Positions 10,968 through 29,042 of a stretch of DNA of 64,000 nucleotides are shown here, piece by piece. The DNA lies in contig NZ_JAPNLE010000009.1 in assembly GCF_026627925.1 (NCBI RefSeq), positions 496,001 through 560,000 of the forward strand. Reading direction: 5' to 3'. Numbering within the stretch: the first letter of the stretch is position 1; every line of letters starts with the position of its first letter. The notes under the pieces are model-generated. The model was not told the origin of the DNA. It worked only from the letters and a program-made list of their open reading frames with translations, and searched no databases. This DNA comes from Cupriavidus sp. D39. Its GTDB lineage: Bacteria; Pseudomonadota; Gammaproteobacteria; Burkholderiales; Burkholderiaceae. The position numbers and the translations under genes were made by a program.

Positions 10968-11077
10968 TGCAATCGATTGCATTAGATTAGGAATCGAAAG
11001 CGATAGCCCAGTGCAGACTTCACATGACTGCTTGCCCTCGCTGGAGATCCCATCATCAAAATATGCAATCGATTGTA
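10968..11077. promoter_or_regulatory. Two LacI-type operators before the aldehyde dehydrogenase
   Basis: TGCAATCGATTGCA at 10968-10981 is a perfect 14-bp palindrome; TGCAATCGATTGTA at 11064-11077 matches 13 of 14 and overlaps the region of the ribosome site (AAGGAG). The central CG and spacing resemble operators of the LacI/GalR/PurR family. The same motif recurs through the block to 29042. Confidence 0.8.
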
Positions 11078-11090
11078 AGGAGTGTGCCAC

Positions 11091-12599
11091 ATGGCCGAAG
11101 CTACGCAAGACAGATCGAACCTGAATCGCCCGTACTGGGGAGCCATTCTTGGCGGCAACGTCGTCGAGGCTGGCGGTGACCAGGAGTTCTTCATAGTCGA
11201 GGAAGCAGCGACTGCCAAGCCACTGGGCCGCGTGGTGTCCGCGGACGAAGCGCTCGTAGGTCGCGTGGTGGCGGATTCGCGACAAGCTTACGAAAATGAC
11301 TGGCGCCGGCGTTCGCCGCGCGAGCGCGCGCAGTTGTTGCACCAGGTTGCTTCGAAAATTCGCGAGCACGCTGACGAACTTGCCGAACTCGAGGCACGCG
11401 AAGTCGGCAAGCCAAAGCGCGATGCACTCCGCTTTGATGTCTCTTATTGCCATGCCTGTTTCGACTATTTCGCGGGCCTGGCCGATACGCTCCATGGCGA
11501 AATCCTTGACCAGGGTGCGATTGAAGCGCGCGTACTATTTGAACCGTATGGCGTGGTCGCAGCCATCCTTCCGTTCAATTGGCCACCGATTCACTTTGCG
11601 AAGAAGTCTGCACCGGCACTGGCTGCGGGAAATACCGTCGTCGTGAAGCCGGGTGAACAGGCGCCACTCACCGTGATGCGACTGGTCGAACTGGCCAATC
11701 AAGTGCTGCCCCCAGGCGTGCTAAACGTCGTTCCAGGCATCAAGGCCGGGCCCGCTCTGGCGTCGCATCCCAAGGTGGAGCGCATCAGCTTTACAGGTGC
11801 AACCGCAACGGGCCGCCGCGTTCTGCATAGCGCGGCGGAGAACATCACTTACGCGACCATGGAGCTTGGTGGCAAGAATGCGCTCCTCATTCTGGAGGAT
11901 GCGGACATGGAGGTGGCCCTGAATGTCGCGCTCGAGGGCATGTTCTACAATCAAGGCGAAGCGTGCACGTCGACGGCGCGCATTCTCGTCCATGAATCCC
12001 GATACGCGGAGTTCGAGACCAAGTTTGCTCGGGCCACCGAGAAACTCGTTGTCGGCAACGGACTGGATGCGAGGACGGACATCGGTCCAATGGTCGACGG
12101 CAAGCAGCGCGATCGCGTGATGGGGTATATCGATATTGCCCTGCGCGAAGGCGCACGGCTCGTCACGCAAGGTACGTTGCCGACCGATTCACAGTATGAG
12201 CACGGCTACTGGGTTCCACCCACCGTCCTTGGCGATATCGTGCCGACGATGACGGTCGCCCAGGAAGAGATCTTTGGGCCTGTTGCATGCCTGATGCGCT
12301 TCAAGACCGAGGATGAAGCCATCGACATTGCAAATGGTACGGCCTATGGGCTGACCGCCGCGATTGTTACGACAGACGAGGATCGTGCATGGAAGCTCGC
12401 GCGTCGCCTCGAAGCCGGCATGATCTTCGTTAACAACTACATGCGCAGGGCTTTCCTTGGATCGCCATTCGGCGGCGTGAAAGGAAGCGGGTATGGTCGT
12501 GAAAACGCGACCGAAACGCTAAAGGAGTTTGTACGCTCCAAGAATGTTCGTTTCCCGTCCGGCAAGACGCCGATTCCGACGTGGCCGCCTAAAGACTAA
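11091..12599 (+). CDS. NAD(P)-dependent aldehyde dehydrogenase
   Basis: 502 residues, full length. NAD-binding motif FTGATATGR near residue 228, catalytic Glu in MELGGKNALL near 260, catalytic Cys in NQGEACTST near 294, and the late motif EEIFGPVACL near 395. Related to benzaldehyde/vanillin-type and other aromatic or short-chain ALDHs. It oxidises an aldehyde intermediate to its acid. It is the first gene of a forward group with an amidohydrolase, and two LacI-type operators lie directly upstream. Start MAEATQ at 11091 follows AAGGAG at about 10 bases. Confidence 0.9.
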   Translation: MAEATQDRSNLNRPYWGAILGGNVVEAGGDQEFFIVEEAATAKPLGRVVSADEALVGRVVADSRQAYENDWRRRSPRERAQLLHQVASKIREHADELAELEAREVGKPKRDALRFDVSYCHACFDYFAGLADTLHGEILDQGAIEARVLFEPYGVVAAILPFNWPPIHFAKKSAPALAAGNTVVVKPGEQAPLTVMRLVELANQVLPPGVLNVVPGIKAGPALASHPKVERISFTGATATGRRVLHSAAENITYATMELGGKNALLILEDADMEVALNVALEGMFYNQGEACTSTARILVHESRYAEFETKFARATEKLVVGNGLDARTDIGPMVDGKQRDRVMGYIDIALREGARLVTQGTLPTDSQYEHGYWVPPTVLGDIVPTMTVAQEEIFGPVACLMRFKTEDEAIDIANGTAYGLTAAIVTTDEDRAWKLARRLEAGMIFVNNYMRRAFLGSPFGGVKGSGYGRENATETLKEFVRSKNVRFPSGKTPIPTWPPKD

Positions 12600-12698
12600 G
12601 CCGCCTGCCAGCGGATGACTGATGTATTGAATGCCGGGGTCGCTCCTGGAGACAAACGCGACACCGGTGTCCGGACAAATACACCACGGAACACACCA

Positions 12699-14181
12699 AT
12701 GAAGAAGATTCTCATTCAGAATGGGTACGTCGTAACCGTTAACGGAAGGCGCGAAGTTTTCGAGCGTGGCGCGGTTGCGATCGAAGGCAAGCGAATAGCT
12801 GGCGTCTACGCAAAAGAAAATACGCCGACCGGCGAGTTTGACGAAATCATCGATGCCAGCGGCTGCCTGGTCATTCCTGGCCTTATCAATCTGCATCAGC
12901 ATCCGTGGTATTCGATGTTCAAAGGGATCGCGGACGGACTGCTGCTCGAGGACTGGATCAGCGACCTGGTCTTTCCGCTCGTCCGACATCTGTCAGAAGA
13001 CGCGATGCGGCTCAGTGGCTACCAATGCGCCCTCGAGATGCTCGCCACTGGCACGACGACTTCATTCAACCACTCCGTATCGGTAAGCAACGACGCGATC
13101 GTCAAAGCGAGCGTCGAATCCCAGGCCGAAGTCGGTATCCGTCAATTCTTTGGCAAGGAACTGCGATGCCGTAACAGCCGGTTCCTCGACCATCCGCTTT
13201 CGCTGGATGAGTCGTTGGCTGCTGCTGAAGAAGATATCCGTCGCTGGGATGGCAAGCAGGATGGTTTGATCCGCATGGGCATGGTCATCGAGGCCAATGC
13301 CCATTGGACTTCATCTGGCATGAGCACGGAAGAGCTCATCATTCGGGGCACGGAACTGGCGCGAAAGCTGAACGTTCGCATCAGCAGCCACATTGCGGCA
13401 GGTACGTTCTCCACGGAAAAGGGGTTCCTGAAGCATCTGCGTGAAACCGGCCGTACGGACGTGCGCTACCTCATGCAGCTTGGTGTCCTGGACGAGCAAT
13501 GGATGTTGATTCATGGCATCCACTGCACCGAGCTGGATCTCGAGCACATGGCGCATGTGGGTGCCGGCCTCGTACTACACACCCACCAGCGAAGCAATGC
13601 GCGGTGGCGGCATTGCGCCCGCGGCAAATGCGCTGCGGGCGGGGGTGGCGACGGCTCTTGGCACCGATGGCGCCATGGTCGATTACACGAACGACATGCT
13701 CGAACAGGTTAAGGCATGCGTGCTTTTTCAACACCAGCGTCATCTGGACCCGACACGCATGCCGTTTGAGCGTGCATTGGAAATGGCAACCATCAACGGT
13801 GCACGTGTCCTCGGCGTCGCAGACGAACTGGGTTCGCTCGACGCGGGAAAGGTGGCCGATATCGCGGTCTTCGACATGCGCGGCCCTCACGTCGGATCAC
13901 TTCAACGCCCACTATCCGCATTTCTCGGTGCCGGTAAGGGAACGGATGCAAAGTATGTCGTGGTCAATGGCGATATCGTCTATCGCGAAGGGGAGTTCAC
14001 GAAGTTCAGGGAGCGCAAGGAAGTGCTGCGCAACGTCGAACGGCTCGCGGCGGAGATCATCACGAAGGCCGGGCTTGCATCCAGGCTGAATGTCACCTGG
14101 TTGGAGAAAAGTCCTCCACTTTTTCCCCGCGTACCTCGGCCTAACCGGACACCAGCGATTTCAGCGTCATGGCATACGTGA
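12699..14181 (+). pseudogene. Amidohydrolase of the ATZ/TRZ / cytosine-guanine deaminase type, frameshifted
   Basis: Metal-dependent hydrolase that removes amino or similar groups from N-heterocycles or related compounds. Zinc ligands NLHQHPW (HxH, near residue 67), HGIH region and the later TDGAMVDYTND (catalytic Asp) are present. The frame breaks at 13577-13582: the AC run reads ACACAC, and one more AC restores LHTPTSEAMRGGG and a protein of about 494 residues. No second fault is seen, so it is either a two-base slippage mutation or a sequence error. It follows the ALDH by 99 bases and its end overlaps the DoxX-like gene. Confidence 0.82.
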
Positions 14182-14489
14182 AATTCATTCTCGCCTTCGC
14201 CTTCCTCTCGGCTGCGGTCGTCAACCTGGCAGGTCCAAAGGCCATCCGCGCCGAGTTCGCCAAATGGGGTTACCCGGATTGGTTCAGAGTAGCAATTTCG
14301 GCCGTCGAACTCGGCGGAGTGATTTTGCTTTGCATCACCGGAGCAGAGTGGATAGGGGCATCCATTCTGCTGGTCGTCACGCTGGGAATTTTGATGTCGT
14401 TCACCAGATCGAGAGAATGGATGCGAATGCAGTATCCGTTTGTGTTGTTCCTCCTTCTGGCGGCAGTTCTCCAGCAACCCCACGCTTGA
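14169..14489 (+). CDS. DoxX-like small membrane protein
   Basis: 106 residues with four predicted membrane segments and the DoxX-like pattern (AAVVNLAGPKAIRAEFAKWG near residues 15-35; VELGGVILLC next). Members of this family sit in the cytoplasmic membrane and often accompany oxidoreductase clusters; their biochemical role is poorly defined. It overlaps the end of the amidohydrolase frame by 13 bases, so it is likely co-transcribed with ALDH and amidohydrolase. Confidence 0.75.
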   Translation: MAYVKFILAFAFLSAAVVNLAGPKAIRAEFAKWGYPDWFRVAISAVELGGVILLCITGAEWIGASILLVVTLGILMSFTRSREWMRMQYPFVLFLLLAAVLQQPHA

Positions 14490-14560: not shown

Positions 14561-14578
14561 TATGCAATCGATTGCATA
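14561..14578. promoter_or_regulatory. LacI-type operator before the MFS transporter
   Basis: TATGCAATCGATTGCATA is a perfect 18-bp palindrome, the best copy of the block's shared operator. It lies 72 bases upstream of the transporter start. Confidence 0.8.
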
Positions 14579-14649: not shown

Positions 14650-16025
14650 ATGCTCTTCCGACCCATTAACGTCAGAACATTGATCAACGAACGACCGATG
14701 TCGCGGTTCCAGATCCGGACACTGGTCCTGTGTTTTCTCGTCCTGGTGACAGACGGATACGACACGGTCGTTCTCGGATTTATTGGCCCCTCGCTTAAGT
14801 CCCACTTTGGAGCAAGTCCGGCGCAACTCGCCCCCGTGTTTGGCGCCGGCTTCTTTGGTTTGGCGGTGGGGTCATTTCTATTCGGACCTTTGGCCGACCG
14901 CTTCGGAAGAAAGGCGGTGCTGTTGACAACCGTCGTCATGTTCGGGCTTCTGAGCTTGGTATCGGCGTGGGCGCCTTCGCTCGAAATACTGATTGTCCTT
15001 CGGTTCCTCACCGGATTGGGACTCGGCGGTGCGATGCCCAACGCCTACACACTGGCCGTGGAGTACTGCCCCGATCGTTTGCGATCGACGCTCGTGGCGC
15101 CGCTAGGCTGCGGAATCTCGGCGGGTGGGGTGCTGGGTGGCTTGATTGCGCCGCATATGATCAGCGCTTTTGGCTGGCAGTCCATGCTGGTCCTCGGCGG
15201 CGCATTGCCGATGCTCGTCGCCCTCATCCTTTGGGGGGGCTACCCGAATCGGTGCGTTACCTGGTTGCGAAAGGCCGCCAGGACGAGGCTCATGCGATTG
15301 TCAAACACATCGATCCGGCCGTTCCGAGGGAAAGGGCACTCGTTCTTGACGAGGATGCCGCCAAGGGGTTCCCGGTTTCCCAACTGCTGCATCCGAGCCT
15401 TCGGGGCGGAACGCTGCTCCTGTGGGTCACGGCATTCATGGCATTGCTCGTTGTCTACTTTCTGGGCAACTGGTTGACCATGCTCGTTCAGGAGGCCGGT
15501 GTGCCGTTCAGCCAGGCGTCGCGGATGACCGCGCTCTACCTGACCGGCAATGCGCTTGGTGCGGTCCTGCTGGGCTTCCTGATGGACCGGATGAACCCGC
15601 AGTATGTCGTGGCAAGCGCGTTCCTGTGCGCCGCCATTAGTCTTGCTTCGCTCGGCCATCTGGCAGGCGTGCCGGCCATTGCCGTGGTTGCGCTGCTGAT
15701 CACGGGCGTTGGCACCGGCGGCGCCATGACCGGCACGAGTATCCTGTCGGCAGGCTTCTATCCCACCGTTTCGCGCGCCACCGGTGTGGCGTGGACGCTG
15801 GGCATGGGGCGCGTGGGCTCGATTGTGGGTTCGATGGTGGGCGGCGCAATGCTGGCAGCCCACTGGGCGCCAACTCTGATGTTTGTGGTCGTCGCGGTGC
15901 CAATTGCGGTGGCGTCAGTCAGCGTCTATAGCCTGGGGATCTTTCGCCGTCGCCATGCGCAACGGCCATTGCCGCCATCGACGCGAGAAGGCGCTTCAGG
16001 TCATGAGTCGGCATCCGAAGCATGA
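14650..16025 (+). pseudogene. MFS transporter, aromatic acid:H+ symporter (AAHS) type, frameshifted in a G7 run
   Basis: Inner-membrane uptake permease. The first frame gives the N-terminal half with TDGYDTVVLGFIGP (AAHS TM1 signature, DGxD) and GPLADRFGRK (MFS motif A); the second frame gives LPESVRYL and six more membrane segments. The break is at GGGGGGG, 15233-15239: one more G gives a 458-residue protein, the family's normal size. Everything else is intact, so the gene may well be functional and the run under-called. Start 14650 (MLFRPINVRTLI) fits the family N-terminus and has AGGAA upstream. Confidence 0.85.
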
Positions 16026-16034: not shown

Positions 16035-16337
16035 TCATCGGAGACGCGACGGGCAGGGGCATCGATGGCCGGAAATCGTCGCTGCCGTCAGCCTACCGCA
16101 GGAAAGTTCGAGCGTTTCGATGTCTCGTACGCCAGTGTAGAGGCCGACCTGATGGTCAACCAGCAGCAGGACGGCGTTGTCGTGGGCCAGGCGGTCATAC
16201 AGGTGGGGCGAGTTCATGGTGAGGGGTTCCTGAGGGGACTGGGACGTGGGTGCTGCCGCGGTAGCGGCGCCACTGGCGCCGATCGCAGTAACAGCGATTG
16301 CGGTGTTGGACTGGTTCAAAAACTGGCGGCGGTTCAT
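16035..16337 (-). pseudogene. N-terminal fragment of an isochorismatase-like cysteine hydrolase
   Basis: Reads MNRRQFLNQSN with a twin-arginine-like leader (RRQFL, then an Ala-rich stretch), then LAHDNAVLLLVDHQVGLYTG, which is the start of the isochorismatase fold with its catalytic Asp (VDHQ). Similarity stops after DIETLEL near 16103; the remaining 23 codons are unrelated, so the rest of the gene has been lost. It is divergent from the LysR gene at 16487, its probable former regulator. Confidence 0.7.
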
Positions 16338-16486: not shown

Positions 16487-17392
16487 ATGCTCGATCTGAA
16501 CGACGTCTACTACTACGCCAAGGTGGTCGAGCACCGCGGTATCACGGCTGCGGCGCTGGCACTCGACAAGCCAAAATCCAGCATCAGCCGGCGCATCCTT
16601 GCGCTGGAGGCGTCGCTGGGCGCGCGCCTGATCCAGCGAACGTCGCGGAAGTTTGTTGTGACCGAAATTGGCGCCGAGTTTCATCGTCACGCCCTTGCCA
16701 TGCTGATTGAGGCCGAGGCGGCGGAAAGCGTCGTGCGGTATCGCATGGCCGAGCCGAGTGGCACCATTCGATTCACTTGTTCGGTCGCCTTCGCCCAGTT
16801 GGCTCTGGCCGAACTTATGCCGCAGTTCATTGCGACCTATCCGCACGTACGCGTTGTGCAGCACGCGACGAATCGCCAGGTAGATCCAGTGCAGGAGAAC
16901 TTCGACATCTGCGTGCGCGCACATGCCGAGCCGCTACCCAGTTCGTCGCTAGTCCAGCGTCACTTGGCTCACATTCCCTGGTATTTGTTCGCAGACCCAG
17001 GATATCTCGCGCGCAAGGGCATGCCCGGTGAGCCAAATGAACTCTGTGGGCATCACGGAGTTGCGCTCGGCGGTGCCCAGGAAAGCCACTCGTGGCGGCT
17101 AAGCCGAGTATGTGATCCCGATACTGTTGCCGTTCCCTTCACGCCGAGCCTTCTGAGCGACGACATGGTGACGCTGAAGGCGGCCGCTTGCGCAGGCCTG
17201 GGTATCGTTGCACTTCCCGGTTATGCAGGGCGCGGCGAGGTCGAGCGGGGGCATCTGGTTCGTGTCTTGCCTCAGTGGACCGCGGGAGTCGCCACATTGA
17301 GCTTGCTGATGCCTTCGCGCCGTGGTCTGCTTCCTTCCGTGCGTGCGTTCAGCGAGTTTCTGTCGGCGTACGTGCCCGCAGCCGTTCAATGA
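16487..17392 (+). CDS. LysR-type transcriptional regulator
   Basis: 301 residues. HTH at residues 15-45 (ITAAALALDKPKSSISRRI), linker, and a LysR substrate domain with FDICVRA, GLGIVALPGY and LVRVLPQW motifs, resembling the DsdC/AphB-like group. The open frame continues upstream to 16298, but MLDLNDVYYYAK is the usual start. Divergent from the truncated cysteine hydrolase. No copy of the block's LacI operator is seen at its promoter. Confidence 0.85.
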   Translation: MLDLNDVYYYAKVVEHRGITAAALALDKPKSSISRRILALEASLGARLIQRTSRKFVVTEIGAEFHRHALAMLIEAEAAESVVRYRMAEPSGTIRFTCSVAFAQLALAELMPQFIATYPHVRVVQHATNRQVDPVQENFDICVRAHAEPLPSSSLVQRHLAHIPWYLFADPGYLARKGMPGEPNELCGHHGVALGGAQESHSWRLSRVCDPDTVAVPFTPSLLSDDMVTLKAAACAGLGIVALPGYAGRGEVERGHLVRVLPQWTAGVATLSLLMPSRRGLLPSVRAFSEFLSAYVPAAVQ

Positions 17393-17477
17393 GTTGTGTC
17401 CAACCGAGGATCCGGCGCAATTGCGCAATGGCGGTCAGCCAGCACCTCCCATCGTGCCGTCCGCCAATGGCTTTCCA

Positions 17478-18395: not shown

Positions 18396-18430
18396 TGCAA
18401 ACGATTGTATAAGCAATGCAATCGTTTGTA
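18396..18430. promoter_or_regulatory. Tandem LacI-type operators before the porin
   Basis: TGCAAACGATTGTA at 18396-18409 and TGCAATCGTTTGTA at 18417-18430, whose starts are 21 bases apart (two helical turns). Both are variants of the block's shared operator. Confidence 0.7.
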
Positions 18431-18501: not shown

Positions 18502-19590
18502 ATGAAAGCATGCAAGTGGGTAGCCGCCGCGCTGGCGACGGTCCCGGCCGTTGCCGCTGCACAGTCGGTCACGCTGTACGGCCTGATCGACACGGGCGTG
18601 GAGTATGTCAATCATATCGGCGCGGCCGGCAACGGCGTCGCGCGCATGCCGAATCTGACCGGCACCGTACCGTCGCGCTGGGGCCTGCGTGGCACGGAGG
18701 ATCTCGGGGGCGGACTCAAGAGTGTATTCGTGCTCGAATCCGGTTTCGCACCTGACGCGGGTACTTCGGGGCAAGGTGGCCGATTGTTCGGCCGCCAGGC
18801 ATTCGTAGGGCTTAGCGATGAGCGTTGGGGGCAGCTCACCTTCGGGCGGCAATTTACGATGCAGTTCTGGTCGACCCTTGACTCCGATATCCTGACGTCA
18901 AACATCTATGGCGGAAACGCCCTGGATAGCTTTCGCGCCAATCCCCGAGCCGACAACGTTATCGGGTACAAGGGAAAGTTCGGTGGGGTGACGATCGGCA
19001 GCACCTATAGCCTGGGTCGTGACACAGTCAATGCGCCAGCCGGGGCCAATTGCGCCGGCGAGAATCCGGCCGACAAGACCGCGTGCCGCGATTGGTCGGC
19101 GATGCTGGCGTATGACGCGAACACTTGGGGCGTTTCCACGGCATATGAATCGATGCGTGGCGGCGCGGGCGCCACTGGCGGCCTGACCAGCAGCAGCCGG
19201 AAGGACGATCGCTGGATCTTTGGTGGCTATATGGCGCTGTCCAACATGAAGATCGGTGTCGGGGGTACGATTCGCAACAACGAAGGCAGCGCCACGCCGC
19301 ATAGCCAGCTCTACTACGGTGGGGTTTCCTACGACATCACGCCAGCATTCAACCTGGCCGGCGAGGTGTATTTCCTGCGCTTCAACAACAGTCCGAACAA
19401 GGCCTGGCTCGAGGCGATTCGCGGAACCTACTCGTTCTCCAAACGCACCGCGGTGTATCTGACTGCCGGCTTTATCGATAATCGTGGCAATCTCGCGTTG
19501 TCGGTCAGCAGTGGTGATACAAGCAGTGCCGCGCCGAAGCCGGGAGGCAATCAGTTTGGCGCAATGATGGGCGTAAAACACACATTCTGA
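18502..19590 (+). CDS. Outer-membrane general porin (beta-proteobacterial type)
   Basis: 362 residues. Signal peptide MKACKWVAAALATVPAVAAA, then QSVTLYGLIDTGVEYV, the standard start of Burkholderiales porins; RWGLRGTEDLGGGLK and FGRQAFVGLSD are conserved loops/strands, and the C-terminus ends in Phe (GVKHTF) as outer-membrane assembly requires. A trimeric channel that would admit the block's substrate. The open frame runs upstream but 18502 has AGAGGAG upstream. Two LacI-type operators precede it, so it belongs to the inducible set. Confidence 0.9.
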   Translation: MKACKWVAAALATVPAVAAAQSVTLYGLIDTGVEYVNHIGAAGNGVARMPNLTGTVPSRWGLRGTEDLGGGLKSVFVLESGFAPDAGTSGQGGRLFGRQAFVGLSDERWGQLTFGRQFTMQFWSTLDSDILTSNIYGGNALDSFRANPRADNVIGYKGKFGGVTIGSTYSLGRDTVNAPAGANCAGENPADKTACRDWSAMLAYDANTWGVSTAYESMRGGAGATGGLTSSSRKDDRWIFGGYMALSNMKIGVGGTIRNNEGSATPHSQLYYGGVSYDITPAFNLAGEVYFLRFNNSPNKAWLEAIRGTYSFSKRTAVYLTAGFIDNRGNLALSVSSGDTSSAAPKPGGNQFGAMMGVKHTF

Positions 19591-19689: not shown

Positions 19690-20139
19690 TTAGAACGTCA
19701 TGACGGCAAACTGATTATTCAAGTAACGCTGGGCGAGTTCGACGTAGCGTACGGCGGTCGCATTCAGGCCCTCCCGTTCCCCGTCTGTAAGCGATCGAAG
19801 GAGACGAGCAGGATTTCCCGCCCATAATTCTCCAGAACCGACCACCTTGCGCGGAGACAGTACCGCGCCCGCAGCTAGCATGCCTCCTGACTGGACGATG
19901 GCGCCATCCAGGACGCGCGCGCCGAAGCCGACGAAGGCGTTGTCTTCGAGCGTGCAAGCATGCAGGATTGCCCCGTGGCCGACGGTGACGTCATCGCCAA
20001 CAATGCATGGCAGTCCGTTGGTGGTGCCGTGGATAATCGTGCCATCCTGAATATTGGTCCGATGGCCGATGGAGATCTGCTGCACGTCCCCGCGCAGGAC
20101 GCAGTTGAACCAGATGGACGACTGAGTCCCGATGGTCAC
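19690..20139 (-). CDS. Gamma-carbonic-anhydrase-like hexapeptide-repeat protein (PaaY/CaiE-like), 5' end unclear
   Basis: Left-handed beta-helix protein with hexapeptide repeats (IGHRTNIQDGTIIHG, VGDDVTVGHGAILH, VGFGARVLDGAIV, LWAGNPARLLR) and the His metal ligands. PaaY-type members are thioesterases or carbonic-anhydrase-like. The listed start is GTG (MTIGTQSS); homology continues upstream in frame (PVIDRSAFVAQGTQIIGDV) to about 20237, but no ATG is present before an in-frame TGA. The true start is a rare codon or the 5' end is damaged. Confidence 0.7.
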   Translation of the reverse strand: MTIGTQSSIWFNCVLRGDVQQISIGHRTNIQDGTIIHGTTNGLPCIVGDDVTVGHGAILHACTLEDNAFVGFGARVLDGAIVQSGGMLAAGAVLSPRKVVGSGELWAGNPARLLRSLTDGEREGLNATAVRYVELAQRYLNNQFAVMTF

Positions 20140-20353: not shown

Positions 20354-21268
20354 CTATTTGATCGGCGGCACCGGGCGTGTCGGAGTGCCTTCCGCTAGCA
20401 CGAATTCGCAATGCAGGGTGTAGTACGGCGCCTGCTGCCCGGAACGAGGGCCGGATCTTGCCTCATGCCGCTCGAACTTGCCGATCAGATCTGGCGTGAC
20501 ACCGAACGTGACATCCGAGTCCAGGTACTCGGCATCATCGGCAAAGATCTGCGAGATCAGCGTGTCGTGACCTTCCGCGAAAACGACGAAATGCAGGTGT
20601 GCCGGGCGGTATGGGTGGCGATGCTGGATACGGAGCAGGTCTCCGACGGGGCCGTGCGTGGGTACCGGGTAACCGGCTGGCCTCAGGCTTCGGAAGTGGA
20701 AGTCGCCGTTCGCATCCGTAAAGAAATGGCCTCTCAGGTTCATCTCCGGTTGGCCCGGATCCTGATTCTCATAGAGGCCGACAGGCGAGGCCTGCCACAC
20801 GTCCACCCTCGCACTCTGGATCGGTTCTCGGCGTGTATTGAGAACTCGCCCACTGACAAAGATCGGTGTTGCCGTCGTATCGTCCTGGACGATCGATGCG
20901 CCGAGTTCATAGTGCGGTGAGCCCTCACGAAAGAAGGGCCCAAGCAACGCTCCGCCAGTACGATCTTCATGCATGGAGTTGTTCAGCACCTTGACCACTG
21001 TGGAGTAGCCAAGTACATCCGCCAGGAGCACAACTTCGTTGTGGGAGTCGGTGCAAGTCAGACCAACCTTTCGCAGGAAATCCAGCCCCTGTTCATACTC
21101 ATCATCGCTCAGCTTTACCTGATTCAGGAATGCATGGCCGTGCTCGACCAGTGCATTCAGGATCTCCTTGAGACGCGGGTTTTCGGTCCGGCTCATTGCG
21201 GCAAGCACGACGTCCGTTACCGACGCGGCATCACTGACAATGCTGCCTTGCTGCACAGATTTCGTCAT
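20354..21268 (-). CDS. Intradiol ring-cleavage dioxygenase (catechol / hydroxyquinol 1,2-dioxygenase family)
   Basis: 304 residues. An N-terminal dimerisation domain and a catalytic domain with the four Fe(III) ligands: Tyr in VGLYENQD (near residue 165), Tyr in RPAGYPVP (near 200), and the two His of RPAHLHF (near 225). It opens an ortho-dihydroxylated aromatic ring between the hydroxyls. Sequence is closest in feel to hydroxyquinol dioxygenases but the substrate is not fixed by what is visible. Start 21268 follows AAGGAG, and a LacI-type operator overlaps that leader. Divergent from the binding-protein gene at 21475. Confidence 0.9.
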   Translation of the reverse strand: MTKSVQQGSIVSDAASVTDVVLAAMSRTENPRLKEILNALVEHGHAFLNQVKLSDDEYEQGLDFLRKVGLTCTDSHNEVVLLADVLGYSTVVKVLNNSMHEDRTGGALLGPFFREGSPHYELGASIVQDDTTATPIFVSGRVLNTRREPIQSARVDVWQASPVGLYENQDPGQPEMNLRGHFFTDANGDFHFRSLRPAGYPVPTHGPVGDLLRIQHRHPYRPAHLHFVVFAEGHDTLISQIFADDAEYLDSDVTFGVTPDLIGKFERHEARSGPRSGQQAPYYTLHCEFVLAEGTPTRPVPPIK

Positions 21269-21280: not shown

Positions 21281-21294
21281 TGCAATCGTTTGCA
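21281..21294. promoter_or_regulatory. LacI-type operator at the dioxygenase leader
   Basis: TGCAATCGTTTGCA, 13 of 14 to the block consensus, directly beside the dioxygenase ribosome site on the minus strand. Binding here would block transcription or initiation. Confidence 0.75.
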
Positions 21295-21440: not shown

Positions 21441-21454
21441 TGCAATCGATTGCT
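21441..21454. promoter_or_regulatory. LacI-type operator before the NMT1-like gene
   Basis: TGCAATCGATTGCT, 13 of 14 to the consensus, 21 bases before the start codon at 21475. With the site at 21281 it flanks the divergent promoter region at a distance of 160 bases, which would allow looping. Confidence 0.75.
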
Positions 21455-21474: not shown

Positions 21475-22410
21475 ATGAACAGGATAACCGTCCTCGGCTT
21501 CGAAGGCGCCTTCAACCTTCCGATCTGGGTAGGGCATCGGCAACGGCACTTCGAAAAGCACGGGCTGGAAGTCAGCCTGGAGTACGTCAAGGGATCGGTC
21601 GAGATGGTCAACCGCCTGACTTCGGGCACGGCACAAGTCGCCTTGACGAGCGTGGACAACGTCCTGGCGTATCGGAGCGGGCATGGCGAAACGGCAAACG
21701 GCAGCGCGCCTGACCTGGTGGCATTCATGGGAGGCGATCATGGATTTCTGTCGTTGATGTCGCAGCCAGAGATCACTGCTGTTTCGCAACTGCGAGGCAA
21801 AACGCTTTCGGTGGACGCGCTGACCACCGGCTTTGCGTTCCTGCTGCGGGAAATCCTTGTCGCGAACGGCATCGCGTCGACCGATGTGGCATTTGATGCA
21901 GCGGGCGGCACGGGCAACCGGTATCGTGCGCTGGTCGCCGGCAAGCACGACGGGACATTGGTGCGCACCCCTTTCGAGCGCCTGGCGGAACGCCAGGGAT
22001 GCAATGTCCTGGTGAGCGGCAACTCGCTATTCGCGGACTACCTGGGAACGGTGGGTGCGGTCCTGCAGTCTTGGGCATCCCGAAACCGGGAGCAACTTGT
22101 CGGATTCTTACTGGCGTATCGGGAGGCGTTGAACTGGATCTTCGACGCGAGTAACGCCAATGCGATCGTCGAAATCCTGCGGACAGAGTTTGCCCAGCTC
22201 ACGCGCGACGACGCGCGCGCCGTGCTCGATGACCTGGTGGACCCGGCACACGGACTCATCCGAGATATGGAAATTCCGGACGCGGGACTCGCTCTTGTCT
22301 CGCGTATTCGAGACAGCCATGCATTGGTGCCGACGACTCGGCCATTTGTGGATTGCGTGGACCGGCAATACCTTCGACTGGCACAGGAAGCAACCGGCTG
22401 GTCGCGCTAG
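21475..22410 (+). CDS. NMT1/THI5-like substrate-binding protein without signal peptide
   Basis: 311 residues with the periplasmic-binding-protein type II pattern of NMT1/SsuA proteins: NLPIWVGHRQRHFEKHGLEV near residue 15, GSVEMVNRLTSGTAQVALT near 45, LRGKTLSVDALTTGFAFLLR near 120. There is no signal peptide or lipobox, and no ABC permease or ATPase gene nearby, so it is probably cytoplasmic: an enzyme (as THI5 and related decarboxylases are) or a sensor. Start 21475 has GGAGGAG. An operator lies 21 bases upstream. Confidence 0.75.
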   Translation: MNRITVLGFEGAFNLPIWVGHRQRHFEKHGLEVSLEYVKGSVEMVNRLTSGTAQVALTSVDNVLAYRSGHGETANGSAPDLVAFMGGDHGFLSLMSQPEITAVSQLRGKTLSVDALTTGFAFLLREILVANGIASTDVAFDAAGGTGNRYRALVAGKHDGTLVRTPFERLAERQGCNVLVSGNSLFADYLGTVGAVLQSWASRNREQLVGFLLAYREALNWIFDASNANAIVEILRTEFAQLTRDDARAVLDDLVDPAHGLIRDMEIPDAGLALVSRIRDSHALVPTTRPFVDCVDRQYLRLAQEATGWSR

Positions 22411-22506: not shown

Positions 22507-22916
22507 TCAGTCGACGACTGCAATGGCCTGCACTTCAACCAGCATCTCCGGCTTTGCCAGGCCAGTGACGGTGATCAGCGCACTCGCAGGAAAGTTGTCG
22601 CCGAACACTTCTTTGCGGATCTTGGTGAACTGATCGCCATAACGCCCGTCGGTGATCGATACCGTCATCGTGACAATGTCCGCGAGCGTTCCCCCGCCTC
22701 TTCGAGGGTTTCGGAAATCCGACGAAATACCTCACGCGCTTGTCCGTCGAAGTTTCCGGCGAGGGATTTACCCTGTCCGTCCTCGACCACGGTTTGGCCT
22801 GCCAGCCAGACGATCGTGCCGCCTTGCGTGATGACTGCGGGGGAGTACGCCCGCTGTTGCGTGGCATCGCGCTTGATATAGCGGCGGACTTGCTTGTGTT
22901 GCTGCTCATTTGCCAT
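22507..22916 (-). pseudogene. RidA / YjgF-family deaminase, frameshifted in a C5 run
   Basis: 136 residues if repaired. IVWLAGQTVV near residue 38, GQAREVFRRISETLEEAG, then in the second frame DIVTMTVSITD, FPASALITVTGLAKPEMLVE with the conserved R/E-type active-site end. RidA proteins hydrolyse reactive enamines/imines and family members act in aminoaromatic catabolism. The break is at 22691-22695 (CCCCC); one extra base restores the whole protein, so a base-calling error is quite possible. A perfect LacI-type operator lies 55 bases upstream. Confidence 0.82.
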
Positions 22917-22970: not shown

Positions 22971-22984
22971 TGCAATCGATTGCA
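22971..22984. promoter_or_regulatory. LacI-type operator before ridA
   Basis: TGCAATCGATTGCA, perfect copy of the block's palindrome, 55 bases upstream of the RidA start on the minus strand and between it and the end of the LacI gene. Confidence 0.8.
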
Positions 22985-23030: not shown

Positions 23031-24089
23031 CTAAACGATTTTGCCGTGTCGGGGAGGGGCGATGCAGGTCGGTGGTGCCGTCGAGCCACGAACGATCAAC
23101 TTCGGCATCAGTTTTACCGTCACCGCTTTGCTACGTGGCGATTCGATCTGGCGAAGCAGTAGGGCTGACGCCTGTTCGCCCATGTCATGCACGGCCATTC
23201 GGATCGTGGTCAGCGGCGGGACGAGTGCGTCGACGAAAGGCATGTCATTGTGGCCGACCAGCGAGACATCTTCCGGACAGCGTATATCGGTGGCACGCAA
23301 GTAGTCATAGCAGCCCATCGCAACCAGATCGTTGCTGGCCGCGATGGCGGTCAGCCCTGGGAGGGCTCCGAACAACCGGGCACAGGCTTCTTGGCCGGCC
23401 TGACGGGAGTAGCTGGTCGCCTCGACGACGCACCATGCGTCTCGCCGCAGCCGATGGCGCCGCACAGCGTGCTCGAAGCCCTCGCGCCGCAAATGCCCGG
23501 TGGACAAGACTTCTGGGCCGGCGATATGGCCAATACGCCGATGGCCGAGCGCTACCAGGTGGTCCACTGTCATGCGCATGGCGAGCTGGTTGTCGTTGAC
23601 CACGCAGGATGCACAGCCGGTGTCCTGCCCCCGGTTGACCAGGACCACCGGGACATGCCGGGCGAGGCAGTAATCGAGCAGCGGGTCGTCTCGCTCGGCA
23701 GTCGCCAGGATCAAACCTTCCACCTGGCGCGCAACAATCTGGTCTATCACGAAGCGCCGGCGGCTCTTGTCCGAACCTGCATTGATGACGATCGGGACAT
23801 AGCCGTGGAGGGCCAGCATCGCCTCGATTCCAGCCAGGATGGGCGGAAACACTGGATTTGCGAGGTCGGGCAGTACAACGCCGACCAGGCCAGAGCGCTG
23901 CGTACGCAAGCCCGCGGCAATGCGGTTGGGGCGGAAACCCCATGCGTGGGCCACCTCCAGGACGCGTGCCACGACGTCCTGCGCCACAAGGTGCCGCGTG
24001 GCCGGATTCATCACGCGGGAAACGGTGGAGTAGTGGACCTCGATCTCGGCCGCGAGGTCTTTAAGCGTGACACGCTTGCGCTCGGACAT
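23031..24089 (-). CDS. LacI-family transcriptional regulator (intact)
   Basis: 352 residues. N-terminal HTH VTLKDLAAEIEVHYSTVSRV with hinge helix (GLRTQRSGLVGVVLP), then a ribose-binding-protein-like sensor domain (GHRRIGHIAGP, AIAASNDLVAMG, PPLTTIRM). It is the last gene of the minus-strand group SDR-BKACE-oxidoreductase-cupin and is the best candidate to bind the TGCAATCGATTGCA operators, since LacI proteins read palindromes with central CG. It is paralogous to the regulator at 27756-28805. Confidence 0.9.
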   Translation of the reverse strand: MSERKRVTLKDLAAEIEVHYSTVSRVMNPATRHLVAQDVVARVLEVAHAWGFRPNRIAAGLRTQRSGLVGVVLPDLANPVFPPILAGIEAMLALHGYVPIVINAGSDKSRRRFVIDQIVARQVEGLILATAERDDPLLDYCLARHVPVVLVNRGQDTGCASCVVNDNQLAMRMTVDHLVALGHRRIGHIAGPEVLSTGHLRREGFEHAVRRHRLRRDAWCVVEATSYSRQAGQEACARLFGALPGLTAIAASNDLVAMGCYDYLRATDIRCPEDVSLVGHNDMPFVDALVPPLTTIRMAVHDMGEQASALLLRQIESPRSKAVTVKLMPKLIVRGSTAPPTCIAPPRHGKIV

Positions 24090-24411: not shown

Positions 24412-24753
24412 TCAAGGTTTCTGGTATGGCATAGCCAGTAGCAGCAGGGCCGGTCTATTGTGCGGATTCGACACTTGGCGCGCCTCGTTGGGTGCCAGCC
24501 GCACGGAGTCGAACTGGTCAAGCTGCACGGATTCTTCCGGTGTGTGGATGCAGACCCGGCCTTCGAGCACCACGTAGTGTTTTTCCACCGGCGAGGCATC
24601 CATGGAAGTCTGTCCGCCTGGCAGCAGGACGGAAACGCCCAGCCACAGTGCTTCGGACGGCCCCGCCTCGTGCCCCTGCAGACGCAGGCAATGCATGCCA
24701 TGATGATTAGGCGGAAAGTAAACCGGCGCTTCGTCAAAACGTGTGGTGTTCAT
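24412..24753 (-). CDS. Small cupin-domain protein
   Basis: 113 residues, single cupin fold: LLPGGQTSMDASPVEKHYVVLEG is the first cupin motif (metal ligands in SPVEKHYVVLEG), and RQVSNPHNRPALLLLA the second. The function could be an isomerase, dioxygenase or sensor; none is visible. Its ATG overlaps the stop of the upstream oxidoreductase (ATGA), so it is translated as part of that operon. Confidence 0.8.
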   Translation of the reverse strand: MNTTRFDEAPVYFPPNHHGMHCLRLQGHEAGPSEALWLGVSVLLPGGQTSMDASPVEKHYVVLEGRVCIHTPEESVQLDQFDSVRLAPNEARQVSNPHNRPALLLLAMPYQKP

Positions 24754-25739
24754 GGCTTTAGCACCACGCGCTCGGTTGCGCCCTGCAGCACCGCCCGATA
24801 GGCCTGGTCGGCCCGCTCGAGGCCGTAGGTGTAGGTCGGCAGTACGGGGAAGGGCTGAAGCTTTCCCTGAGCGAACATCGGGGCCAATTCATCGAGAATG
24901 CGCGCACAGGCGGCACTGTCAAGCGCCAGTGTATCGACGCCGACGTAAGTGTGCTGACCACGGTAGAACGCAAAAATGTCGAAGGGCACCGCCTTCTCGA
25001 TGGTCGAGATGAAGATTTGCTTGGCACCAATGGCCATGGCCTGATTGGCCTGCTCGAAATACGGGCTACCTACGGTGTTGTAGACGATGTCGGCACCGTG
25101 GCCATCCGTTTCGCCGCGCACCACCGCGGCAATGGCTTCGCTGCTGGCATCAATCATGCGCACGGGGCCATTGGCGTGGCCTCGGTACGCCTCGGCCGTG
25201 CGCTCAATGGCGAAAACGCGGGCGCCTAGGGCGGTGGCAATCTGAATCGTGGCCTGGCCGACTTTGCCGTTGCCACCGCAGACCAGCACGACGTCGCCGG
25301 CCGAAGGCATTCCAGCGCGACGCAGACCCTCATAAGCGGTGATGAAGGGTACGCCCACGGCGCCTGCTTCCAGCAGCGACAGGGCTGCGGGCTTGGCCCG
25401 CACTGATTGCGCATCGATGGTTAGATATCGGCCGTGAGTGCCGTCGCGGCGAATGCCTAGTTCGCCGCCGCTACCCCAGACCTCCAGGCCGACCATGTCG
25501 CTCGGGCCGTCCACGACGACGCCGGCATAGTCACGGCCCGGTGTGCGCGGCCACACCGCATGCGGCATCAGACCTAGGGTTGCCTTGACGTCGCTCGGAT
25601 TCACGCCGGCGCTCACCACTTCAATCACGCACTGGCCGATGCCGGCTGTGGGGCGGGCCACGCCTGCCAGTTGGAGGCTAAGGGAGTCGATGTCCGAGGC
25701 TTTCTCGGTGATACGGATAGCGTTCACGTTATCTCTCAT
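24750..25739 (-). CDS. Zinc-free MDR / quinone-oxidoreductase-like dehydrogenase
   Basis: 329 residues of the medium-chain dehydrogenase family. GROES-like domain (GVNPSDVK, TPGRDYAGVV) and Rossmann domain (VVLVCGGNGKVGQATIQIA near residue 150). No structural-zinc Cys cluster, so an NADPH-dependent reductase of enones or similar is likely. Lies between cupin (overlap) and BKACE (36-base gap) in the minus-strand operon; reduction of a ring-cleavage product is conceivable but not shown. Confidence 0.8.
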   Translation of the reverse strand: MRDNVNAIRITEKASDIDSLSLQLAGVARPTAGIGQCVIEVVSAGVNPSDVKATLGLMPHAVWPRTPGRDYAGVVVDGPSDMVGLEVWGSGGELGIRRDGTHGRYLTIDAQSVRAKPAALSLLEAGAVGVPFITAYEGLRRAGMPSAGDVVLVCGGNGKVGQATIQIATALGARVFAIERTAEAYRGHANGPVRMIDASSEAIAAVVRGETDGHGADIVYNTVGSPYFEQANQAMAIGAKQIFISTIEKAVPFDIFAFYRGQHTYVGVDTLALDSAACARILDELAPMFAQGKLQPFPVLPTYTYGLERADQAYRAVLQGATERVVLKP

Positions 25740-25775: not shown

Positions 25776-26660
25776 TCAGGCTTCGCGCAGGCCGAGGGCG
25801 CGTCGCGCCTCGGCGGCCGAGGCGATGTCTGCGCCAAGCGAGCGCACGATATTGGCCGCTTTGGTGACCAGCGCTGCGTTGTTCGGCGCAAGCACGCCTT
25901 TGTCGAGATAGATATTGTCTTCAAGTCCAACCCGGACATGACCGCCGGCCAGCCATGCTTGAGCCACGACGGGAAACTCCGTGCGGCCGATGCCGAAGGC
26001 CGACCAGTGCGCGCCAGCAGGCAGCATATTGCGCGCGTAGAAGATGGTTTCCGGCGTGGGCGCGAAGCCGTACTTGACGCCGAGGACGAAGGTCCAAAGA
26101 CCGGGGCCGTCCAGCACGCCTTCGCGCATGAAGTCGAGTGCCATGTTGAGGTCTCCGGAATCGAAGATCTCAAGCTCGGGCATGACGCCGGCAGCACGAA
26201 TCGCAGCGGCCATCTTGCGAACGTTGGCCGGCGTATTCATCACCACGTCGGCACCCGAGTTCATGGTGTTCAGGTCGAGGGAACACACGTCCGGACGTAG
26301 TGCCGTGATGTGTTCGACGCGCTTCAGCGGATGCAGCAAGGTCGTTCCCGCTGCCGCTACACGGGGATCATCCTCGCTCGGCACGAAGCGGCCGCCCGGG
26401 CCTGTCGTCAGGTTAATGATGAGCGTGCGGTTGCGCTGGCGGATGCGGTCGATGACGTCAGCGTAGTAGTCAAGCGACATCGAGGGGCAACCGGTCTCGG
26501 GGTCGCGTACGTGGATATGCGCGGCAGCAGCACCGGCTTCGGCCGCTTCCAGTGCCGCGTCGGCGATTTGCTCCGGGGTAACAGGCAGCCCGGGATGCTG
26601 CTCGGGGGTGACGATATTGCCGGTGACGGCGCAGGTAATGATGGTCTTGCGTGCGTGCAT
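25776..26660 (-). CDS. BKACE family beta-keto acid cleavage enzyme (DUF849)
   Basis: 294 residues. The zinc motif AAHIHVRDPETG near residue 48, INLTTGPGGRF near 82 and GLEDNIYL near 250 are signatures of 3-keto-5-aminohexanoate cleavage-type enzymes. These condense a beta-keto acid with acetyl-CoA to give acetoacetate and a new acyl-CoA. Its placement in an operon with an intradiol dioxygenase regulon suggests it may process a beta-keto acid formed after ring cleavage. Substrate specificity cannot be read from the sequence alone. Confidence 0.88.
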   Translation of the reverse strand: MHARKTIITCAVTGNIVTPEQHPGLPVTPEQIADAALEAAEAGAAAAHIHVRDPETGCPSMSLDYYADVIDRIRQRNRTLIINLTTGPGGRFVPSEDDPRVAAAGTTLLHPLKRVEHITALRPDVCSLDLNTMNSGADVVMNTPANVRKMAAAIRAAGVMPELEIFDSGDLNMALDFMREGVLDGPGLWTFVLGVKYGFAPTPETIFYARNMLPAGAHWSAFGIGRTEFPVVAQAWLAGGHVRVGLEDNIYLDKGVLAPNNAALVTKAANIVRSLGADIASAAEARRALGLREA

Positions 26661-26685: not shown

Positions 26686-27435
26686 TCAGCCGAGCTGACG
26701 GCCGCCATCGACAACGATGGTGGTACCTGTGGCGAAACACAGTGAAGTTGCGCAGGCAACAATGGCGTCGGCCACGTCCTGTACCTGCCCAATACGCTTC
26801 AGTGGCGTGGAGTTCGCGGCGCGCTCATTGAAGTCGCTGCTGCGCCCGGGGACGAAGGCGGTATCCACGACGCCCGGGGAGACGTTGAGGACACGGATCT
26901 GGGGCGCCAGCGCCCGCCCGAGCGAGACCGCCATGACATCCAGCCCGGCCTTGGCCGCGCAGTACGCCACGTTGCTGCCCTGGCCAGTGCGGCCGGCAAT
27001 GGAGCCGACGTTCACCACGAGCCCGTCGCCGTGTGCGCGCAGATATGGCGCGAAGGCGCGGATGGCGGCAAACTGGCCGCGCCAGTTGACGGCGAACAAG
27101 TCGTCAATCAACTCGTCGCTTAGCGCGTCGAGGTCCGCGTGCGGGATGGAACGCGTAAAGCCGGCCGCGTTCACAAGGATGTCCACGCGACCGTAGTGGT
27201 GTTGGACGTCATCAGCAAGCGCGCGCAGCGACGCACTGTCGCCGATCTCGGCAACCGCCGCGAGATGATTGCCGGCCGGCAGTGCCGCGGCCGAATGCGA
27301 TGCAGTGTCGGCATTGCGGCCAGTCAGCACCACGCTCGCACCATTGATGGCAAGTGCATTGCCGGCGGCAAGGCCAATCCCGCCTGTGCCGCCAAGGATG
27401 ACGGCAACCCTGCCAGATAAGGAGTTCATTGTCAT
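26686..27435 (-). CDS. Short-chain dehydrogenase/reductase
   Basis: 249 residues. Cofactor motif GGTGGIGLAAG near residue 15, NAAG near 88, catalytic Ser in NVGSIAG near 140 and YCAAK near 155, C-terminal FATGTTIVVDGGRQLG. A classical SDR that oxidises or reduces a hydroxyl/ketone. First gene of the minus-strand operon, directly behind two overlapping LacI-type operators. Start 27435 (MTMNSLSGR) was chosen over the longer frame because it fits the family. Confidence 0.88.
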   Translation of the reverse strand: MTMNSLSGRVAVILGGTGGIGLAAGNALAINGASVVLTGRNADTASHSAAALPAGNHLAAVAEIGDSASLRALADDVQHHYGRVDILVNAAGFTRSIPHADLDALSDELIDDLFAVNWRGQFAAIRAFAPYLRAHGDGLVVNVGSIAGRTGQGSNVAYCAAKAGLDVMAVSLGRALAPQIRVLNVSPGVVDTAFVPGRSSDFNERAANSTPLKRIGQVQDVADAIVACATSLCFATGTTIVVDGGRQLG

Positions 27436-27469
27436 ATACGGTGGATGTAAGGTTAGCTTCTCAATCTCG

Positions 27470-27496
27470 TGCAATCGTTTGCAGCAATCGATTGCA
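27470..27496. promoter_or_regulatory. Double LacI-type operator before the SDR operon
   Basis: TGCAATCGTTTGCA at 27470-27483 and AGCAATCGATTGCA at 27483-27496, back to back on the minus-strand operon promoter. Each matches the consensus at 13 of 14. Confidence 0.8.
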
Positions 27497-27755
27497 TTAT
27501 GGACGGTGCGGTGAGACAGTCAAGAGATTTTTGACTTCAGGGCACTTCCAGATTGATTGGCTTCGGCGAAATGCAGGAGCGACGCCCAGCGAGCGAGCGC
27601 GTTTCCCGGCGCGGGGAGCGATACGCGCTTATTTCAGTTGGACTTTGGGGGGGCGTTGAATCGGGCTAGCGGCAGCGTTTTGCCGCGATTCGCCCGACCA
27701 GTTGGATTCCGGGATGGCGCCTGGTCAGCCTTGCTGGGGAAGGGGCAATCGCAGG

Positions 27756-28805
27756 TCAGCGCTTGCGAGGAGATGCGGTCGAGCCTCTGACGATGAGTTT
27801 CGGGGGCAGCACCACGTTACGTACCGGTTGGTCCCGAACGTCAATGGCCTGCTGAAGAAGATCAGCCACCTGGCGCCCCATTTCCTGATGGCTGATACGA
27901 ATGGTCGTTAGAGGGGGCGACCATGTCGACCAGCGGCATATCGTTGTGCCCAACCACCGACAAGTCACGCGGACATTGCAACCCGCGTTCGCGCAATGCG
28001 TCGTATACGCCGAGCGCAATCAAGTCGTTGGCAGCGACGATCGCCGACACTTCCGTGTTCTGACTCAACAACCGGCTCGCTGCTTCCCTTCCATGTTCCC
28101 GTGTATAGGCCGCGGCCACCTCGCAAGGAGCTCCCTTGCTATCCAGACCATGTGATGCGAGTGCCTGCAAGAAGCCTTTGCGTCTGAGGAAACCGGTTGA
28201 ATGATCGGGGGGCCGCCTATATGGCCGATCTTCACATGCCCCAGCTCAATGAGATGGTCAACGGCCAACTGGGCGCCGAGCATCTCGTCCGAAACGACAG
28301 CCGACAATCTTGCATCGTCTTCCGTTCGGTTTACCAGCACCGTGGGCACGCCTTTTTCGATACAAAACGATACCAGCGGATCGTGACGCGTCACTGTGGC
28401 GAGTATGAGCCCGTCAACGCGCCGCGCGATGAGGCCATGTACAAATTCAAGTTGGGCTTCGCACTCCGTCCCTATGTAAGCGACGATCGCGGAGTAGCCA
28501 TGCGCGGCAAGACGTTCGGTTGCGCCGGCAAGGATTGGAGTGAACACGCTCGTCGCGATCTGGGGAATCAGAATGCCGATCAGTTTCGAACGTCCGGTTC
28601 GCAAACTTGCTGCTACGGGATCCAGTCGGTATCCGAGCTTGCTGGCGGCTTTCATGACTCTTGTTACGGCTTCGGGCAAGACGACCGAACGTGTTGCAGG
28701 ATTCAGAGCGCGCGAAACCGTTGACACATGGACGCCGGCAAGTTCGGCGACTTGTTTCATGGTAACTGGCCGCTGACTGCCAGATTGAGGTGTTTTTCCC
28801 TTCAT
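27756..28805 (-). pseudogene. Second LacI-family regulator, two frame breaks in G runs
   Basis: If repaired, about 350 residues: HTH VTMKQVAELAGVHVSTVSRA, LVRTGRSKLIGILIP-like hinge, sensor domain, and PLTTIRISHQEMG near the end, clearly paralogous to the LacI protein at 23031. Frame breaks fall at G6 28207-28212 (one base short) and G5 27913-27917 (two short or one long). Both are in homopolymers, so the gene may be intact in the organism. It may share or compete for the same operators. Confidence 0.8.
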
Positions 28806-29028
28806 GACAGGTCTGCCCCGGTTCAGTATGGATGGTGGAGGGACTATCCGTTGCGCGGACAAACGACCGAAACGGACTTGGATTGTGGCAACGGTCGTCG
28901 TACACGGGCCCGGGAAGTCCCACGACGTCTGACAACCGATTGTATCAAGCCCATCCAAAAACGCAATCAGGCGAGGTTACAGAGCTGGCAACCCTCATCG
29001 CAGCTAGCAACCAACGCCAGTTGCGAAA

Positions 29029-29042
29029 TACAATCGATTGCA
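29029..29042. promoter_or_regulatory. LacI-type operator before the chemoreceptor remnant
   Basis: TACAATCGATTGCA, 13 of 14 to the consensus, 83 bases before the chemoreceptor start and 224 bases upstream of the second LacI start. A poorer copy, ACAACCGATTGTA, is at 28932-28944. Confidence 0.65.

Follow-up and report, generated by a model that had tools for sequence, protein, structure and literature searches.

A LacI-type palindrome recurs at the promoters of an 18-kb catabolic block in Cupriavidus sp. D39, very probably a local regulon with two paralogous regulator genes

The window analyzed here, a stretch of 64,000 nucleotides from Cupriavidus sp. D39 (contig NZ_JAPNLE010000009.1, positions 496,001 to 560,000), contains an 18-kb block of catabolic genes in which the 14-bp palindrome TGCAATCGATTGCA or a close variant recurs at 11 places. 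The block encodes an aldehyde dehydrogenase (ALDH), an amidohydrolase, a transporter of the major facilitator superfamily (MFS), a porin, an intradiol dioxygenase, an NMT1-like protein, a RidA-family protein, a short-chain dehydrogenase (SDR), a beta-keto acid cleavage enzyme (BKACE), an oxidoreductase resembling zinc-dependent alcohol dehydrogenases (ADH), a cupin, and two regulators (Table 1). Families were assigned by Pfam and NCBIfam. Both regulators, here called LacI1 and LacI2, combine a LacI helix-turn-helix domain (PF00356) with a periplasmic-binding-protein-like effector domain. The whole genome has four LacI helix-turn-helix domains above the Pfam cut-off, and the two proteins encoded outside the block have unlike recognition helices (VSPITVSRVVN and VSKATVSRYLN).

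The initial annotation had placed 11 palindromes at eight promoters, namely those of the ALDH, MFS, porin, dioxygenase, NMT1, RidA and SDR genes and of a chemoreceptor remnant, and all of these sites and promoters were recovered. Three sites match TGCAATCGATTGCA exactly (10968, 14563 and 22971), six have one mismatch (11064, 21281, 21441, 27470, 27483 and 29029) and two have two mismatches (18396 and 18417); the central CG of the even palindrome is present in 11 of 11. With up to three mismatches allowed, the window contains 18 matches, compared with a mean of 4.2 and a maximum of 9 in 100 shuffled versions. All 11 sites reach at least 23.7 bits with a symmetrised matrix and the next window match reaches 15.2 bits, a gap that is partly built in because the matrix was made from the same sites. 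Across the genome (7,740,597 bases in 11 contigs), all nine places with at most one mismatch to TGCAATCGATTGCA lie inside the block and thus near the regulator genes. Exactly two mismatches occur at 28 places, of which two (18396 and 18417) are in the block, and the reversed pattern has 6 places at up to two mismatches in the genome. An equal frequency of sites elsewhere in the genome, which the initial annotation had named as the outcome that would speak against it, was thus not observed. Site counts, the central CG and the confinement to the block support its view of LacI-type operators in one local regulon of about eight promoters, and the 18-kb block, in which these promoters share one putative repressor-binding sequence, is very probably such a regulon.

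The sites are retained in orthologous promoters that have diverged, in as many as four other Cupriavidus genomes (relatives are denoted below by G for genomes and L for loci). In promoter alignments the operators were kept while the flanks diverged at ALDH, MFS and porin in five genomes, at dioxygenase/NMT1 in four, and at SDR in three. Single sites were less constant: the second ALDH site has two mismatches in G039, the second porin site is degenerate in G055, the RidA site has three mismatches in C. basilensis OR16 (G047) and is missing from G039, and the chemoreceptor site was encountered in the window alone. The list of eight targets thus holds for the window, while its RidA and chemoreceptor members are not general among the relatives. 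Gene content varies as well. The block of G002 is without RidA and the SDR part and that of G055 additionally without the dioxygenase; the block of G039 has RidA, ADH, BKACE and SDR and is missing LacI1 and the cupin.

The operators are positioned at promoters upstream of start codons. Using a simple -35/-10 score (maximum 12) on the gene strand, we found pairs scoring 9 or 10 at four of the eight promoters (dioxygenase, NMT1, RidA and SDR), where the -10 hexamer starts 5 bases before the operator and the two overlap by one base; among 479 control stretches of the window (plus strand), three reached a score of at least 9. At the ALDH and chemoreceptor promoters (2 of 8) the pairs are weaker (7 and 8) and the operator lies within the -35/-10 spacer in a register common to these two (-35 at -8, -10 at +15). 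A score of 8 was obtained for the porin pair, whose -35 and spacer are covered by the operators. By this score, no sigma-70-like -35/-10 pair was found at the MFS operator. Paired sites are 96 bp (ALDH), 21 bp (porin), 160 bp (dioxygenase/NMT1 divergon) and 13 bp (SDR) apart. As predicted from these positions, the arrangement of operators and promoters is that of steric repression.

LacI2 was traced by searching 60 genomes of the genus, including that of the window, with the OR16 protein. The broken copy in the window is 96% identical to it over residues 2–190, close relatives (88–91% identical) occur in three other genomes (G039, G055 and G002), and the remaining matches listed have 48–51% identity. 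Among 300 genomes of the order, with at most seven candidates per genome scored, only that of the window matched at 1e-60. Within the five genomes encoding LacI2, the LacI2 block accounts for 34 of the 35 sites having no more than one mismatch (9/9, 9/9, 6/7, 5/5 and 5/5, counted by eye), and in location the palindrome follows LacI2. Both regulators are encoded in one block in the window and in OR16. In contrast, the blocks of G002, G039 and G055 have LacI2 and the sites and are without LacI1, which is found on another contig in G002 and G039 and about 5 kb away in G055. These outside LacI1 modules bear sites of the TGCAAACGTTTGCA type, so that one contig of G055 holds both a LacI1 module of the TGCAAACGTTTGCA site type and, about 5 kb away, a LacI2 block with TGCAATCGATTGCA-type sites. 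Because the sites occur in three blocks without LacI1, and the LacI1 modules have TGCAAACGTTTGCA-type sites, LacI2 appears the likelier owner of the palindrome. For the same reasons LacI1 as the sole owner is not the favored reading, and the gene deletion proposed in the initial annotation (23031–24089), which implied LacI1 as the regulator, points to the less likely paralogue. Upstream of LacI2, TGCAATCGGTTGCA is present in OR16 and G055, as autoregulation would want; no site precedes LacI2 among those listed for G002 and G039, and the window site at 28931 is degenerate.

The two site types differ at base 6 of the half-site. A search by protein for LacI1 relatives gave 42 loci. In 21 of them (helix VHYSTVSRVMN, no LacI2 in the stretch) and in the LacI1 modules of G055, G002 and G039, we counted sites of the form TGCAANCGNTTGCA, allowing up to one other mismatch. 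Since L134 turned out to coincide with L053, it was dropped, leaving 46 sites in 23 loci. The count omits L046, which has both regulators, as well as L083, L084 and L086, where the LacI helix was partial or not found. Also omitted were loci with no sites at the cut-off, namely those of Massilia/Pseudoduganella and those of Polaromonas, Comamonas and actinomycetes (L077–L082); GGCAATCGATTGCC occurs in L077, L078, L079, L081 and L082, and one near variant in L080. In the LacI1-only loci, whose regulators have tyrosine at position 17 (Y17), base 6 was A in 87 and T in 5 of 92 half-sites. The LacI2-only (V17) blocks of G002, G039 and G055 had T in 31, A in 10 and C in one (21 sites), the window T in 18 and A in 4, and the OR16 block T in 17, A in 2 and C in one. 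Six Bradyrhizobium loci with P17 regulators, fetched by protein, had T in 12 of 12, and five Cupriavidus P17 loci (L092–L096) had T in 20 of 20, the latter fetched through the site and hence not independent. Fisher's test on the half-sites gave p = 2e-29 with the duplicate locus and the P17 loci included; since the related genomes are not independent, our conclusion rests on the qualitative contrast of A and T.

In the numbering of Camas et al. (2010, PMC2978694), the differing base is NT-2, for which they reported covariation with AA-55, AA-15 and AA-5; position 17 corresponds to AA-15. LacI1 and LacI2 resemble their TVSR group, both having TVSR. Unlike in their code, which links NT-5/NT-4 to AA-15/AA-16, NT-5 and NT-4 remain C and A here, and NT-2 differs along with AA-15 (PMC2978694). 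The A group has Y at position 17 and the T group V or P. Both groups share K at AA-5 and, in every row, R directly after the hinge leucine, the residue that we took as AA-55. Position 17 is a plausible candidate for setting the base-6 preference, no more. That it alone sets base 6 was rejected on account of the Massilia locus L087 and of the other separating columns described below.

L092–L096, from five other Cupriavidus genomes, encode a third LacI protein whose helix reads VHPSTVSRVLN or IHPSTVSRVLN, with TGCAATCGATTGCA-type sites about 1.2 kb apart on either side of it; a porin (64–66%) is present in three of these five stretches and a dioxygenase (43–44%) in two. In four Pseudoduganella and Massilia loci with a TVGR helix (L066, L067, L085 and L087), two TGCGAACGTTCGCA sites are located 57–68 bp apart upstream of the LacI gene.

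We consider it probable that the palindromes are operators of a local LacI repressor regulon for a catabolic pathway with intradiol ring cleavage, and that LacI2 is its main owner. A dimer of LacI2, the V17 protein, would bind TGCAATCGATTGCA with one half-site per monomer and cover the end of the -10 hexamer or the -35/-10 spacer, making the promoter unusable by RNA polymerase. Upon binding of the inducer, presumably a compound of the pathway, it would release the DNA. LacI1, the Y17 protein with its apparent preference for TGCAAACGTTTGCA, would belong with the SDR-BKACE-ADH-cupin module; it may act on the hybrid operators too and is a possible second input through their half-sites.

Several observations weigh against this interpretation. 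A stricter general promoter scan of the block gave 5 pairs versus 5.8 expected and thus no overall excess; the dioxygenase, NMT1 and SDR operators each mark the end of one of these five pairs. LacI1 is encoded in all five LacI2 genomes, and no LacI2 genome without LacI1 was found among them. Genomes without a LacI2 orthologue can hold up to 7 near-exact sites, some of which adjoin P17 LacI genes. The reading frame of LacI2 is broken in this assembly; if this is real, the protein could not act in strain D39. With respect to the recognition code, six columns of the DNA-binding domain, and not position 17 alone, separate the groups, and the Y17 proteins probably form a single clade, so that the code rests on few events. 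The Massilia protein of L087 has P17 (VHPSTVGRVMD) and goes with TGCGAACGTTCGCA, in which base 6 is A. Finally, the two specificities overlap, as the V17-only blocks hold the 10 A half-sites mentioned above and also a complete TGCAAACGTTTGCA (G002, L090 15242).

The A half-sites are unevenly distributed. The five LacI2 genomes have 42 sites (11 in the window, 10 in OR16 and 21 in the others), of which 38 fall into six promoter classes; the other four are the RidA and chemoreceptor sites of the window and the sites upstream of LacI2 in OR16 and G055. A-containing sites make up 14 of 19 at the porin, dioxygenase and SDR promoters and 1 of 19 at the ALDH, MFS and NMT1 promoters (Fisher's test, p = 3e-5, with counts made by eye, a post hoc grouping and related genomes). 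It is conceivable, though we lean against it, that both repressors share the block, operators with T in both half-sites being read by LacI2 and the A/T hybrids by both; this would be compatible with LacI2 as the main owner, and porin, dioxygenase and SDR would then answer to two signals. The occurrence of a dioxygenase, an SDR and a porin-like gene in LacI1 modules elsewhere agrees with this, whereas the grouping was chosen after seeing the data, the genomes are not independent, and all five hybrid sites of the LacI1-only loci are at one position, about 7.7 kb into the locus (that of L049 adjoins a porin-like match). These five same-position hybrids favor the other view, that hybrids may just be weaker operators. 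Equally tentative is the broader picture of two paralogous LacI repressors (Y17 with A and V17 with T), one base pair per half-site apart, that were joined in one block with hybrids read by both; if true, the block would be a natural snapshot of two regulons merging.

LacI2 might also be a real pseudogene and the regulon derepressed, which would be compatible with LacI2 as its former owner. Compared with OR16, frame-breaking indels are present in LacI2 (28207 and 27913), RidA (22691), MFS (15235) and the amidohydrolase (13574), whereas other single-base differences near gene ends (for example 14123) were left out of this count. Four of the five breaks, all except that in the amidohydrolase, fall within runs of C or G (G in the case of LacI2), where sequencing errors would be expected; the operators themselves are intact. 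In OR16 and G002, the genes of LacI2, the amidohydrolase and the MFS transporter have open frames. Sequencing error is more likely to be the cause than real loss, and we regard derepression as rather unlikely.

More improbable still is LacI1 as the main regulator, its specificity having shifted to TGCAATCGATTGCA in the lineage of the window and OR16. Its gene lies inside the block with an open frame, unlike that of LacI2, all five LacI2 genomes encode a LacI1, and sites with T in both half-sites occur at the SDR promoter of the window and OR16, whose module accompanies LacI1 elsewhere. However, its helix VHYSTVSRVMN is the same as in the relatives that go with TGCAAACGTTTGCA, and the three genomes with sites in blocks without LacI1 argue against it, as does the site type of their LacI1 modules. 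That the repeats are a chance or mobile repeat and not operators can be dismissed, chance by the shuffles and the genome-wide scan, and both by the confinement of the sites to the block, their retention in diverged promoters and the fact that they have only the 14-mer, and not its flanks, in common (judged by eye).

The dioxygenase matched PnpC (208 bits) and the hydroxyquinol 1,2-dioxygenase 1tmx (196 bits) ahead of catechol enzymes, a ranking by sequence kinship. Amidohydrolase and BKACE each match several activities, and the NMT1 protein had no solved relative at 0.001. Ten sequences were compared with NCBIfam, the amidohydrolase and MFS proteins by their first pieces; among the matches listed, at most 25 per protein, none reached a curated cut-off. 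Enzyme families are the basis for a putative single pathway, in which a hydroxyquinol-like ring would be cleaved, the product reduced, and a beta-keto acid cut by BKACE.

In their survey of LacI regulons, Ravcheev et al. (2014, PMC4052901) reported that 93% have at most 20 genes, three-fourths of these 2–7, that 31% of the regulators control one operon and 38% two (69% one or two), that more than three-fourths of local regulators are autoregulated, that intersite distances peak at 13, 22 and 32 bp, and that 96% of the orthologous groups with assigned pathways belong to carbohydrate metabolism. The block resembles these local regulons in its even palindrome with central CG and its targets near the regulator, LacI2 may be autoregulated as well, and the tandem sites at 13 and 21 bp fit the known spacings of 13 and about 21–22 bp (PMC4052901). 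It differs in having eight promoters and about 13–15 genes, presuming their operon membership, in agreement with the unusual size for a local LacI regulator that the initial annotation had pointed out; in addition, none of its families names a sugar enzyme and it contains two LacI paralogues (PMC4052901). In five LacI1 modules of other Cupriavidus (L049, L062, L131, L133 and L134), dioxygenase, SDR, BKACE, ADH and cupin likewise accompany the LacI1 relative. Unlike the window, these modules bear TGCAAACGTTTGCA-type sites, two on average, and are without the ALDH-amidohydrolase-MFS-NMT1 part. The core of the Escherichia coli PurR operator, GCAAACGTTTGC, resembles the LacI1-type site; regulator class and targets differ. 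In listings of the open-licence literature on LacI with hydroxyquinol in Cupriavidus, intradiol dioxygenase, aromatic degradation, BKACE and paralogous repressors, this regulon was not described, and literal 14-mers gave only unrelated matches there.

The presumed mechanism is ordinary, and the size, the apparent pathway and the paired paralogues are unusual. Most of what is known of LacI regulators concerns the use of sugars, and here one appears to run an intradiol-dioxygenase pathway from eight promoters. As the genus has separate, adjacent and merged LacI1 and LacI2 modules, how paralogous repressors stay insulated or share operators is directly testable, and it is the adjacent and merged pairs that merit further attention.

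Table 1 Genes and operators of the catabolic block (window coordinates)
Feature	Position	Strand	Remarks
Operator TGCAATCGATTGCA, ALDH promoter	10968..10981		In -35/-10 spacer; identical in 5/5 aligned genomes
Second ALDH operator TGCAATCGATTGTA	11064..11077		Just 5' of AGGAG and ATG 11091; 96 bp from first
Aldehyde dehydrogenase	11091..12599	+	Pfam Aldedh
Amidohydrolase (deaminase/TRZ-ATZ type)	12615..14181	+	By homology; frame broken near 13574
Small membrane protein	14169..14489	+	ORF; orthologues in relatives' stretches; presumably DoxX-like (our label, from no search)
Operator TGCAATCGATTGCA, upstream of MFS	14563..14576		
MFS transporter, aromatic acid/H+ symport type	14650..16025	+	Frame broken near 15235
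Porin operator 1 TGCAAACGATTGTA	18396..18409		Hybrid
Porin operator 2 TGCAATCGTTTGTA	18417..18430		Hybrid; 21 bp from operator 1
Porin	18502..19590	+	Pfam Porin_4
Gamma-carbonic-anhydrase-like hexapeptide protein	19690..20139	-	
Intradiol dioxygenase	20354..21268	-	Closest solved relatives PnpC, hydroxyquinol 1,2-dioxygenase
Dioxygenase operator TGCAATCGTTTGCA	21281..21294		Hybrid; overlaps end of -10 hexamer
NMT1 operator TGCAATCGATTGCT	21441..21454		Overlaps end of -10 hexamer
NMT1-like substrate-binding protein	21475..22410	+	
RidA-family protein	22535..22916	-	Frame broken near 22691
RidA operator TGCAATCGATTGCA	22971..22984		
LacI1 regulator	23031..24089	-	Recognition helix VHYSTVSRVMN
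Cupin	24412..24753	-	27.1 bits, just below cut-off 27.2
MDR-type (zinc-ADH-like) oxidoreductase	24750..25739	-	
BKACE	25776..26660	-	
SDR	26686..27435	-	Start 27435 or 27429
SDR operator 2 TGCAATCGTTTGCA	27470..27483		Hybrid
SDR operator 1 AGCAATCGATTGCA	27483..27496		Overlaps operator 2 by one base and -10 hexamer end by one
LacI2 regulator	27862..28805	-	Recognition helix VHVSTVSRALN; frame broken near 28207 and 27913
Candidate autoregulatory operator of LacI2, TACAATCGGTTGTC	28931..28944		Degenerate; given on LacI2 strand
Operator TACAATCGATTGCA, chemoreceptor remnant	29029..29042		In -35/-10 spacer
Chemoreceptor remnant (name from initial annotation)	29125..29526	+	ORF; 0 Pfam families found

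Homology to the intact OR16 gene continues somewhat below the lower end given for LacI2 (27862), and similarity to OR16 ends close to the start of LacI2, at 28773. Scanning the window for Rfam families and tRNA genes gave no matches. The block also contains a fragment of a LysR substrate-binding domain (17349–18446), without a match in the OR16 stretches, and a short fragment that by eye reads as isochorismatase-like (16035–16337). Elsewhere in the genus, pairs of TGCAATCGATTACA are located 13,112–13,113 bases apart in G014, G023, G038 and G045 and are probably conserved coding sequence. To the left of the block, a gene at 7444–8404, which we take to be nitronate-monooxygenase-like, is split over two frames with an apparent 10-base tandem duplication near 7803–7822, and just to its right are two transposase-like open reading frames (29957–33187), presumably of an IS481-like family.

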